A stretch of 33,522 bases of DNA from Lachnospiraceae bacterium. Lineage in GTDB: Bacteria; Bacillota; Clostridia; Lachnospirales; Lachnospiraceae. The position numbers and the translations under genes were made by a program. The stretch's first letter is position 1. Each line of letters opens with the position of its first letter. The DNA is taken from positions 1 to 33,522 of the forward strand of contig JALFTO010000146.1 in assembly GCA_022779165.1 (NCBI GenBank), in the 5' to 3' direction. Positions 7,376 to 12,427 of this stretch are shown here, one piece after another. Below the pieces are notes generated by a model that was not told the DNA's origin, did not search any database, and worked only from the letters and a program-made list of their open reading frames with translations.

Positions 7376-8056
7376 TTATGTCGGATTTTCAAGGGTTTCG
7401 AGGATAGTGAGGATTTCTTCCATGGTCTTGCCACCCAGGAAAGTGTGTGTCTCATTGACGATCAAAACGGGGACTCTCTCGATCTGATACTTCTTTACCA
7501 GCTCGGGATACAGTCTGGCGTCGATCATCTGCGCGCTCATATCGGGATTCAGTGATGCGATCCTCTGGCAGGCTGTCACAACGTCCGCGCAGTGATGGCA
7601 GGCAAGCGAAACACAGACCTGCATATGTTTTTTCCCTCTAAGCAAGGTAATACGCGACTTCACTGTGTCTTCCAGAGGCTGTCCGGGTCCTGCCACATTG
7701 TAGAGTGCCAGCACGAACGAATTGATTTCCTTGCCGCCAGGAATGCCCGCAAAAGAAATTCCCGTATAGGTACCTCCTTCCCCATATAAGCCAAAAGAAG
7801 GAAGCAATCCCTCGCAGCACTGTTCCACAATTAGAGAAGGACTATCCTCTTTCCCGTAAAGTTCCAGATTTATCCTGTCACATAATCCCGCAACAGCTTT
7901 CAGAAAGCTTCCGAGTTCTGTTCCTTTCTCATCGTCCTCCAGAACCGCTTTGATTACAACATCTCGTTCAAGCTTGCCGAGTATGCCCTTTAACTGTTCC
8001 TGCAATGCGCTGTCTATGAGTGATGACTGCGCAGGTATCTTAGAAAAGTCTGTCAT
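7376..8056 (-). CDS. Thioredoxin-fold protein resembling the isolated N-terminal domain of AhpF
   Basis: Start at 8056 supported by GGAGGATAAG RBS. CHHC redox motif in VCVSLACHHCADVVTACQRIASLNPDMSAQMIDARLYPELVKKYQIERVPVLIVNE, as in AhpF N-terminal domains; no FAD/NAD domains follow; located directly downstream of ahpC. Confidence 0.82.
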   Translation of the reverse strand: MTDFSKIPAQSSLIDSALQEQLKGILGKLERDVVIKAVLEDDEKGTELGSFLKAVAGLCDRINLELYGKEDSPSLIVEQCCEGLLPSFGLYGEGGTYTGISFAGIPGGKEINSFVLALYNVAGPGQPLEDTVKSRITLLRGKKHMQVCVSLACHHCADVVTACQRIASLNPDMSAQMIDARLYPELVKKYQIERVPVLIVNETHTFLGGKTMEEILTILETLENPT

Positions 8057-8087: not shown

Positions 8088-8654
8088 TCACAGCATTCCA
8101 ACCAGATCAAGACTCGGTGTCAGTGTTTCCTCTCCCGGTTTCCACTTGGCCGGACATACCTGATCGCCGTGTTCCTCAACGAACTGTGCAGCCTGCAGCT
8201 TCCGAAGGAGTTCTTCGGCATTGCGCCCGATCCCGAGATCGTGTACCTCATAAGCCTTGATCTCACCTCTCGGATTCACGATAAAAGTAGCGCGCAGAGC
8301 CTGTCCTGCCTCTTCGATCAATACGCCGAACGCTTTTGACAATTTCCATGCCGTATCCGCTAACATCGGATATTTAATCTTACCGATCGTCTCCGATGCG
8401 TCTGACCATGCCTTGTGTACGAACTCGCTGTCGGTAGAAACAGAATAGATCTCACATCCGAGAGACTGGAATTCCTCGTAATGATCTGCCAGATCTCCCA
8501 ACTCCGTCGGGCATACAAAAGTAAAATCCGCCGGATAAAAGAAGAAGATGCTCCACTGCCCTTCCAGATCTTTTTCCGTTACCTCTAATGTTTTACCCGC
8601 CTGATAAGCCTGCACGCAAAACGGCTCAATTTTTGTCCCAATCAGATGACTCAT
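8088..8654 (-). CDS. ahpC: Alkyl hydroperoxide reductase subunit C (peroxiredoxin)
   Basis: FFYPADFTFVCPTELGDLADHYEEFQSLGCEIYSVSTDSEFVHKAW; C-terminal resolving Cys in EEHGDQVCPAKWKPGEETL. Confidence 0.96.
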   Translation of the reverse strand: MSHLIGTKIEPFCVQAYQAGKTLEVTEKDLEGQWSIFFFYPADFTFVCPTELGDLADHYEEFQSLGCEIYSVSTDSEFVHKAWSDASETIGKIKYPMLADTAWKLSKAFGVLIEEAGQALRATFIVNPRGEIKAYEVHDLGIGRNAEELLRKLQAAQFVEEHGDQVCPAKWKPGEETLTPSLDLVGML

Positions 8655-8743: not shown

Positions 8744-8773
8744 TTGCTATTTTTGTAAAATATGCTATATAAT
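8744..8773 (+). promoter_or_regulatory. Putative promoter for the 61-aa repeat ORF
   Basis: TTGCTA (8744-8749), 18-nt spacer, TATAAT (8768-8773) with upstream TG-like extended -10 sequence. Confidence 0.5.
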
Positions 8774-8840
8774 ATATTTATACTCATTCATCATTAAAGT
8801 TACTGATAAATATATGTTTTCTCAGAACAAGGAGGATACC

Positions 8841-9026
8841 ATGGCTGATAAATTAGATATTAAAAATATGAACGGCATGACCCAAAATGATGACAAATCC
8901 TGTGGTCTCAATAACATGAACTGCGGCGGAGACGCAACTCCCGCAGCAGGTCTCAATAATATGAACGGCATGACCCAGAATGATGACAAATCCTGCGGTC
9001 TCAATGATATGAATTGCAATCAGTAA
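8841..9026 (+). CDS. Small Asn/Met/Cys-rich two-repeat protein, 61 aa, unknown function
   Basis: MADKLDIKNMNGMTQNDDKSCGLNNMNCGGDATPAAGLNNMNGMTQNDDKSCGLNDMNCNQ. AAGGAGGATACC RBS immediately upstream of 8841, promoter-like sequence upstream, strong terminator downstream; the two DNA repeats differ mainly at synonymous sites. Confidence 0.78.
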   Translation: MADKLDIKNMNGMTQNDDKSCGLNNMNCGGDATPAAGLNNMNGMTQNDDKSCGLNDMNCNQ

Positions 9027-9041
9027 AGATTGATATATCGC

Positions 9042-9075
9042 AAAGGGCTGTTGCGTGATAGCAACAGCCCTTTTT
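9042..9075. terminator. Rho-independent terminator, likely serving both convergent genes
   Basis: AAAGGGCTGTTGC-GTGATA-GCAACAGCCCTTTTT: 13-bp perfect stem, 6-nt loop, T run; A run on the other side would give U run on the minus strand. Confidence 0.9.
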
Positions 9076-9081
9076 GCGCTC

Positions 9082-9858
9082 TTATCCAAGCGTCACATCC
9101 AGTATCATCATCAATACAAATCCAAGTGCAAACAGGATCGTCCCGATATTGGAATGCTCCCCTTCCGACATCTCAGGGATCAGTTCCTCCACAACAACAT
9201 AGATCATGGCTCCCGCCGCAAAACTGAGCAGAAAGGGAAGTGCAGGAACGATCAGACTCGCTCCCAATATTGTGAGGAAAGCACCGACAGGCTCCACTAC
9301 GCCTGAAAGAACACCATACCCGAAGGCACGCTTCTTCGACACGCCCTCTGAGGTGAGCGGCATGGAAATGATCGCCCCTTCCGGGAAATTCTGGATCGCG
9401 ATTCCAAGTGCAAGCGCCAATGCTCCGGCCGCCGTCACCTGTTTCTCTCCCGTCATCCAGCCGGCATACACCACGCCGACAGCCATCCCCTCAGGAATAT
9501 TATGTAATGTCACAGCGAGCACCAGCATCGTCGCACGCTGCAGTCTGCTCTTAGGCCCCTCCGCCTGGTCACTTCCCAGATGAAGATGCGGGATCACATG
9601 ATCCAGAAGCAGCAAAAATGCCATTCCCGCCAGAAAACCGAGCGCCACCGGAGCAAATGCAAAGATCCCCATATGCTCCGTATTTTCAAGAGCCGGAATC
9701 AAAAGGCTCCAGAACGATGCCGCCACCATCACGCCGGCGGCAAATCCCATAAGTGCACGCTGTAGGCTGCGATTCATCTGTCCTTTCATAAAAAACACGC
9801 AGGCCGCTCCCAACGAGGTACCCAAAAACGGAATCAAGATTCCCATCCATATCATCAT
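9082..9858 (-). CDS. ZIP family metal transporter
   Basis: [29 protein letters not shown] and [18 protein letters not shown] are ZIP TM4/TM5 motifs. Confidence 0.92.
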
Positions 9859-10929: not shown

Positions 10930-11544
10930 TCAAATCATCAGTTTCAAAGCCGCCTTGAGAATTGCCTCGGCGTCATTCTCATCATCCACCTCACAGCGGT
11001 TCACAGCCTTCATCGCATCCGCCGATCCATATCCGAGTGCAACGAGTGCCTCGACCGCTTCCCTTCTTGCGCTGGTTGTAGCTGTTTCACCAGCGGAACG
11101 CTGCCCGGCTGCCGCACTGATCAGACTATCCGGCGTCTCGTCTGCAGACACCTTATCACGCAGATCCAGAATGACACGCTCTGCCGTTTTCTTTCCGATT
11201 CCCGGAGCTTTTGCAATCATCTTGCTGTCCGCGGCCATGATGGCAAAGCGCAGATCCGTGGCACTCATCACAGACAGGATCCCGAGTGCCCCCTTCGGCC
11301 CGACACCGTTCACGGTGATCAGTTTCCGGAACATGGCAAGTTCATCCTTTTCCAGAAAGCCGTACAGTAGGAACGCATCTTCCCGCACGCACGTATAAGT
11401 ATAGATCTTGAGCTCCTGGTGAAGCCCCGGCAAATAATCAAGCGTACTGCCCGGAACCATGATATTATAGCCGATTCCGTTTACTTCAACCACAATACCA
11501 TTTTCCGTCACTTCTTCCAGTGTCCCATTCACATAAGCGATCAT
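10930..11544 (-). CDS. ruvA: Holliday junction branch migration protein RuvA
   Basis: MIAYVNGTLEEVTENGIVVEVNGIGYNIMVP; VNGVGPKGALGILS; APGIGKKTAERVILDLRDK. Confidence 0.97.
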   Translation of the reverse strand: MIAYVNGTLEEVTENGIVVEVNGIGYNIMVPGSTLDYLPGLHQELKIYTYTCVREDAFLLYGFLEKDELAMFRKLITVNGVGPKGALGILSVMSATDLRFAIMAADSKMIAKAPGIGKKTAERVILDLRDKVSADETPDSLISAAAGQRSAGETATTSARREAVEALVALGYGSADAMKAVNRCEVDDENDAEAILKAALKLMI

Positions 11545-12059
11545 ATCGTTCTCCTCTCCACCTGTTCCGCGATCACGCCGATCAGGAAACCTGTCAGTAA
11601 TCCTGCAACCAAAAGCGCCGGGAAATAGTATAAGATGCTCCCGGTCTCCACCACAAGCGCCGCCACCGCAAGCTGGGCTGCATTGTGTGATACGCCTCCT
11701 GCCATGCTTACACCTTTTACACTGAAGGCATTGCTTCGCTTAGACAGCGCCATCACCAGAAAGCTGCCCATTCCTCCCGCCAGACTGTATAAAATACTGT
11801 ATAAATTCCCAAACAAGAAACCTGCCAGCAGGATTCTTGTGAAATCAATCAAAAACGCTTCCTTTGTTCCAAGCAAATAAAGCCCGACCACCACTGCAAG
11901 ATTGGCAAGGCCCAGCTTTATCCCCGGTATTCCGAAAGAAAACGGAATCAATGACTCAACGTATGACAGAATCAACGCAAAAGCCAACAACATCCCCATA
12001 CCGGCTACCGTCGATATGGGGCTATTTTTTCTCTGATGATCCATATGTAATCTGCTCAT
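11541..12059 (-). CDS. Gx transporter family / heptaprenyl diphosphate synthase component I-like membrane protein
   Basis: ALILSYVESLIPFSFGIPGIKLGLANLAVVVGLYLLGTKEAFLIDFTRILLAGFLFGN; 4-nt overlap with ruvA and with the preceding NusG-II gene. Confidence 0.85.
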   Translation of the reverse strand: MSRLHMDHQRKNSPISTVAGMGMLLAFALILSYVESLIPFSFGIPGIKLGLANLAVVVGLYLLGTKEAFLIDFTRILLAGFLFGNLYSILYSLAGGMGSFLVMALSKRSNAFSVKGVSMAGGVSHNAAQLAVAALVVETGSILYYFPALLVAGLLTGFLIGVIAEQVERRTI

Positions 12060-12427
12060 TGCACCACCGCGTCCAGAACCGGCTCCTCACCACCCTGTAC
12101 CGTGACCGTCAGTCTATGGGGAAGACAGATCAACGACTGCCCATCCGCATAGATTTTTCCCTGATTGACACAAAGCCTGTCGGGGCAGTCCGCATCCCGA
12201 ATAAACACCATGCCGTCCCGGATCACAAGAATATTAAAGTGTCCGTCATAAGAAAGAACCTCTTCCCGATTCTCCGTAAGAGAATAAGAAGCAGCCAATG
12301 TCTTATCCCGGTACACCCGCACCATGCCATCGCCATCCCTGTTTAAAATAATCCTCAGACCATAAAATGCACAGGCTGTGAAAAGCACCGCAATAATCAG
12401 GATCAAATCATTTCTTCTCCACTTCAA
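12056..12427 (-). CDS. NusG domain II-containing protein
   Basis: N-terminal TM plus DGHFNILVIRDGMVFIRDADCPDRLCVNQGKIYADGQSLICLPHRLTVTVQG. TTG start directly abutting the upstream stop codon. Confidence 0.85.
   Translation of the reverse strand: MKWRRNDLILIIAVLFTACAFYGLRIILNRDGDGMVRVYRDKTLAASYSLTENREEVLSYDGHFNILVIRDGMVFIRDADCPDRLCVNQGKIYADGQSLICLPHRLTVTVQGGEEPVLDAVVQ

Follow-up and report, generated by a model that had tools for sequence, protein, structure and literature searches.

SMALL, as we named the 61-aa protein of the ORF at 8841-9026 of the window (the whole 33,522-nt stretch of Lachnospiraceae DNA analyzed here), is a real conserved protein whose association with peroxide and glycerol genes is well supported. 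We tentatively propose, at somewhat less than even confidence, that it resides in the cytosol as an acidic, disordered redox protein with several dithiols, acting together with the double-thioredoxin protein Trx2 and with AhpC and guarding glycerol oxidation.

The SMALL gene and its family

The following features of the window bear on SMALL:

8841-9026 (stop included), + strand: SMALL, four-unit Asn/Met/Cys repeat protein, 61 aa (ORF, homologues, dN/dS)
8853-8876, + strand: unit 1, LDIKNMNG, residues 5-12, Cys-free; N-G end in 53/53 proteins
8898-8924, + strand: unit 2, SCGLNNMNC, residues 20-28, CX6C pair
8949-8969, + strand: unit 3, GLNNMNG, residues 37-43, Cys-free in the window and close relatives, CX6C in most others
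8991-9017, + strand: unit 4, SCGLNDMNC, residues 51-59, CX6C pair
8744-8773, + strand: promoter-like TTGCTA-18-TATAAT of SMALL
8830-8835, + strand: ribosome-binding site AGGAGG of SMALL
9042-9075, + strand: terminator-like perfect 13-bp hairpin running into T5, 3' of SMALL
8088-8654, - strand: ahpC, peroxiredoxin, divergent from SMALL (TIGR03137, 293 bits, cut-off 272)
7376-8056, - strand: Trx2, AhpF-type double-thioredoxin protein lacking the flavin half, active site CHHC (TIGR03143, positions 334-554 only)
9082-9858, - strand: ZIP transporter, convergent with SMALL

The protein, MADKLDIKNMNGMTQNDDKSCGLNNMNCGGDATPAAGLNNMNGMTQNDDKSCGLNDMNCNQ, contains 13 Asn, 8 Asp, 7 Met, and 4 Cys residues. 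Its two 60-nt copies (8865-8924 and 8958-9017) are identical at 55/60 positions, and the five differences comprise four synonymous changes and one nonsynonymous change (N/D). This agrees with an earlier sequence-only reading of the window, which gave about five mismatches, nearly all synonymous, and whose checked numbers (ORF, composition, 60-nt copies, and CX6C pairs) were all correct. When the ORF was codon-shuffled 300 times, the copies matched at no more than 34/60 positions (mean 27), so the repeat is not a product of chance; in the DNA it extends to 70 nt (87%). The same reading gave SMALL its own promoter-like sequence, ribosome-binding site, and terminator, and placed it between a divergent ahpC and a convergent ZIP gene; all of these were located, and the 9042-9075 hairpin was absent from the output of a separate terminator scan. 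A TATAAT-type box also lies 5' of many relatives in ahpC context. The start of Trx2 is probably at MTDFSK, its ORF being open to 8110. A motif 5' of many relatives, TGTCAAAA, was first taken for a regulator site and then rejected as such; its complement, TTTTGACA, probably provides the promoter of the divergent ahpC with a -35 box.

The sequence-only reading called SMALL an orphan, a description overturned by relatives in 52 other loci, mostly from Lachnospiraceae and some from Oscillospiraceae. A protein-guided scan of genome contigs yielded 49 of these loci, and searches of family genomes the remaining three (L003, L005, and L006). The distribution is sporadic (5/397 genomes of the bacterial family and 2/392 of the class, the window's genome being counted in both). 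The four-unit plan is present in 51/53 proteins, with a unit spacing of mostly 16 residues and a unit core of [LIW]-x-[ND]-[ML]-N-[GC]. Unit 1 ends in NG throughout and is free of cysteine; most of units 2-4 contain a CX6C pair, and the later units mostly read K/T-T-C-G-L-N-D-M-N-C. The CX6C spacing is invariant wherever pairs occur, and such pairs are kept in 52/53 proteins. Across the family, Cys and Met each account for 8% of residues. Purifying selection is strong (pooled pN/pS = 0.076; dN/dS = 0.01-0.07 for most pairs). Two refuting conditions named by the earlier reading, an absence of homologues and a Ka/Ks near 1 between them, did not hold: homologues were found, and dN/dS lies well under 1.

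We found no match in Pfam or NCBIfam for any of 51 members, no significant match in PHROGs for the two members tested, and an empty result in a PDB profile search. AlphaFold2, given 51 sequences, returned a low-confidence unstructured model (pLDDT 59, pTM 0.17) that was uninformative as to a fold; on this prediction SMALL would be disordered. Set against small redoxins of the thioredoxin/glutaredoxin type, SMALL has no family match, its Cys pairs are CX6C and not CxxC, and structure prediction gives it no confident fold. Scanning DNA for a pattern of two NMN[GC] motifs added few genomes to those already known, mostly as low-complexity matches, and phage and plasmid searches for relatives returned nothing convincing. 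No published description of the family appeared in the literature searched, in which subscription papers were thinly covered. The protein family is new; the system of AhpC and its AhpF-type reductant around it is already known. SMALL represents a conserved small-protein family of gut bacteria, absent from all libraries checked, with an obvious set of partners.

Peroxide and glycerol genes near SMALL

Genes for ahpC/Trx2 or glycerol metabolism lie within 3 kb of SMALL in 51/53 loci (tblastn): glycerol genes only in 26, peroxide genes only in 17, and both in 8. The two loci outside this count are L005 and L027; the latter has 117 bp of contig upstream of SMALL and belongs to a genome with AhpC. 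The fullest locus reads, on one strand, ahpC-Trx2-glpK-glpF-GlpA/GlpO-like-FAD oxidoreductase-DUF1667-SMALL-dhaK-dhaL-dhaM, an arrangement seen in longer stretches around five loci (L101, L102, L103, L105, and L106). The window has the peroxide half, and the glycerol half of the same genome lies on another contig (C154); genome G786 has two SMALL genes, one per half (L031 and L085). Besides the peroxide and glycerol genes, no gene family recurs in more than six SMALL loci, and metal genes, apart from one ars operon, are not among the conserved neighbors. AhpC is present in 28/28 glycerol-context genomes, against 30/149 other genomes of the family (Fisher's exact test, about 1e-16); the corresponding contrast for the FAD oxidoreductase gave about 5e-10, with an approximate background (at least 70% identity, 99 genomes) of 21 full-length matches, or up to 27 with partial ones, 26 being used. 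These Fisher values, and the one given below for the flavin half, are only descriptive because the genomes share ancestry and SMALL itself served in part to sample them.

In mycoplasmas, the GlpF-GlpK-GlpO route of glycerol-3-phosphate oxidation makes H2O2 (PMC4134286). SMALL loci resemble it in having glpF, glpK, and a GlpA-like flavoenzyme whose best NCBIfam match is the type 2 glycerol-3-phosphate oxidase (NF033460). This flavoenzyme differs from mycoplasma GlpO in that it scores below the cut-off of 460 (304 and 328 bits for two proteins), bears a BFD [2Fe-2S] domain, and is accompanied by DUF1667 and another flavoprotein; for these reasons it may be a dehydrogenase and not an oxidase.

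The AhpC of the window passes its family model, as in known AhpF/AhpC systems. Trx2, with 203 bits against a cut-off of 688 for TIGR03143 (AhpF homologue), corresponds to the thioredoxin half of that model, the flavin half being absent. In SMALL-less genomes of the family, ahpC usually lies beside a full-length TIGR03143 AhpF homologue, such as the 809-bit protein at L144:8684-10366, in which the double-thioredoxin half is C-terminal, an order reversed relative to E. coli AhpF. In SMALL genomes, the double-thioredoxin half is encoded as a separate protein, and the AhpF-type reductase, with flavin and double-thioredoxin domains beside AhpC, is absent at SMALL-linked ahpC loci. A probe restricted to the flavin half found it at 0/43 of these loci, in contrast to 24/29 background loci (22 fused and 2 separate; Fisher's exact test, about 1e-14). 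An apparent adjacent FAD reductase in 35-41% of SMALL loci was an artefact of the thioredoxin half in the fused query and was gone when the flavin half alone was used. SMALL itself resembles no part of AhpF.

On the AhpC tree, the proteins from SMALL loci are spread over several clades, and the SMALL label needs four changes, of which well-supported branches make at least two unavoidable. On the Trx2 tree, all Trx2 sequences from SMALL genomes fall in one clade (support 97/96), including a row labeled background (L147) that comes from a SMALL genome (G822, the genome of L053). SMALL therefore tracks Trx2 and not AhpC. The active site in this clade is CxHC in 55/55 rows and CHHC in 51/55, some loci being counted twice among the 55, against mostly CTMC in the background; an extra Cys lies five residues before the active site in 42/55 rows. 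All 17 Cys-type SMALL genomes tested have the Trx2 half, and each also has AhpC, either in the vicinity or at another site. Most SMALL genomes, including that of the window, have genes for TrxB-like proteins at other loci. One genome (G015) has a flavin-less Trx2 (CAFC) without SMALL.

Possible roles of SMALL

In E. coli AhpF, the flavin domain passes electrons from NADH to the N-terminal double-thioredoxin domain, which reduces AhpC. With the flavin domain missing from the SMALL locus and Trx2 (CHHC) alone left, we infer electron transfer between SMALL and Trx2: the CX6C pairs would exchange disulfides with Trx2, in a direction that is also presumed, and SMALL would either relay electrons supplied by a thioredoxin reductase whose gene lies at another site or buffer them, allowing AhpC to remove H2O2. 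The H2O2 would probably arise from oxidation of glycerol-3-phosphate by the flavoenzyme related to type 2 glycerol-3-phosphate oxidase. Given its linkage to the flavin-less peroxide pair or to glycerol genes, SMALL may be an electron carrier for peroxide defence that has so far gone unnoticed. In favor of such a relay are the strong selection, the invariant CX6C, the linkage in 51/53 loci, the contrast in flavin modules (0/43 vs. 24/29), the single CxHC clade of Trx2, AhpC in every glycerol-context genome, the Trx2 half in all 17 Cys-type genomes tested, the lack of both in G271, whose relative has no CX6C pair, and the TrxB-like proteins of most SMALL genomes. Against it, the Cys-less relatives show that the N-M-N core has a function even where dithiols are missing, G015 lacks SMALL and still has a flavin-less Trx2, Trx2 could be a direct substrate of general TrxB/TrxA, which would make a relay unneeded, and the statistics are inflated by the kinship of the genomes and their sampling through SMALL.

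These relatives are two. The protein at L005:1501-1698 (G271), with one Cys and without a CX6C pair, is encoded within an arsenic operon (arsR, acr3-type permease, the SMALL-like gene, arsD, and arsA); neither Trx2 nor AhpC was found in the complete genome of G271. The other, at L072:1462-1656 (G727), is a distant, Cys-less 64-aa protein with three N-[ML]-N-G units, from another family of the class, whose gene stands by itself, flanked by a permease gene and one of HD-GYP type. They show the N-M-N core to be older or more general than the dithiols, and a core kept without dithiols is the main ground for retaining a scaffold among the explanations. The N-[DN]-M-N-[GC] units would then be short linear motifs that bind to a folded protein, be it Trx2, AhpC, or the flavoenzymes, with four units tethering the peroxidase near the source of H2O2 and the Cys residues adding redox control. 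The core is more constant than the Cys, unit number and spacing are nearly constant, and no confident fold is predicted, all as expected of a scaffold; a pure scaffold, however, leaves unexplained why CX6C is kept in 52/53 proteins and missing in the Trx2-less genome, and we regard this explanation as unlikely, though worth keeping in view.

The Cys and Met contents would also suit a sacrificial buffer, in which these residues are oxidized or adducted by oxidants or electrophiles and then regenerated by Trx2 and by methionine sulfoxide reductases, and the genomic contexts (peroxide, dihydroxyacetone metabolism, and once arsenite) fit it; the strict conservation of spacing and motif and the tracking of one Trx2 clade exceed the needs of a sink, which makes the buffer improbable. 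We hold in equally low regard a metal binder, with Cys, Asp, Asn, and Met as ligands for Fe, Zn, or Cu, that would limit Fenton chemistry either by chelation or as a metallothionein-like store. The sequence is rich in Cys and Asp, a ZIP transporter adjoins SMALL in the window, and one relative lies in an arsenic operon. Outside the window, however, a ZIP gene adjoins SMALL only at L013, the window's near twin, the arsenic-operon relative has lost its Cys pairs, and CX6C is not known as a usual spacing of metallothioneins. Of the metal- or thiol-active protein suggested by the sequence-only reading, the thiol part is thus borne out by the conserved CX6C and the linkage to AhpC and flavin-less Trx2, and the metal part finds no support in the context. 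That reading also rated a RiPP precursor as weak, rightly so in view of the loci. A conserved unit 1 without Cys, ahead of repeated Cys-bearing units separated by acidic spacers, would match a leader (unit 1) and repeated cores (units 2-4); among linked genes, however, only the peroxide and glycerol families recur in more than six loci, so no linked maturase was seen, nor were a protease and an exporter, and a RiPP precursor is very improbable.

The redox relay has a partial precedent in the Clostridium pasteurianum Cp34/Cp9/Cp20 system (Reynolds 2002, as cited in PMC3720550), a split AhpC chain with a separate small carrier between reductase and peroxiredoxin; Cp9 is of the thioredoxin/glutaredoxin type, about 75-80 aa long, and its gene adjoins that of its reductase. 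The likeness lies in a clostridial AhpC system with a small separate protein, and SMALL differs from Cp9 in being a repeat peptide with no predicted fold and no adjacent flavin reductase. If SMALL carries electrons to Trx2, it would show that a disordered repeat peptide can replace a thioredoxin or flavoprotein arm, and would also suggest why gut anaerobes encode glycerol catabolism and peroxide removal together. It is doubtful, if conceivable, that SMALL is a new class of electron carrier, that is, a disordered tandem-dithiol peptide, unrelated to thioredoxins, replacing the flavin arm of AhpF for Trx2/AhpC in glycerol-oxidizing gut anaerobes.

Variants of the locus and further neighbors

Four loci are rearranged (L139, L140, L205, and L206, two of them from Mediterraneibacter): between ahpC and Trx2 they carry dhaKLM in inverted orientation, and SMALL stays at the glycerol-gene end. 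At L032:1-2985, a 619-aa ORF lies between ahpC and SMALL, which are 2.6 kb apart, and Trx2 was not detected there; an insertion is possible. In L106, Trx2, glpK, the GlpA-like gene, and the FAD oxidoreductase match in broken pieces that look like assembly frameshifts. About 3 kb 3' of SMALL, the window has a gene (11541-12427) for what we take to be a NusG-II-like protein; cluster c9, to which it belongs, is also found close to SMALL at five loci of glycerol context (L018, L019, L021, L024, and L042), four of which also have a neighbor (c14) that is presumably FMN-binding-like.
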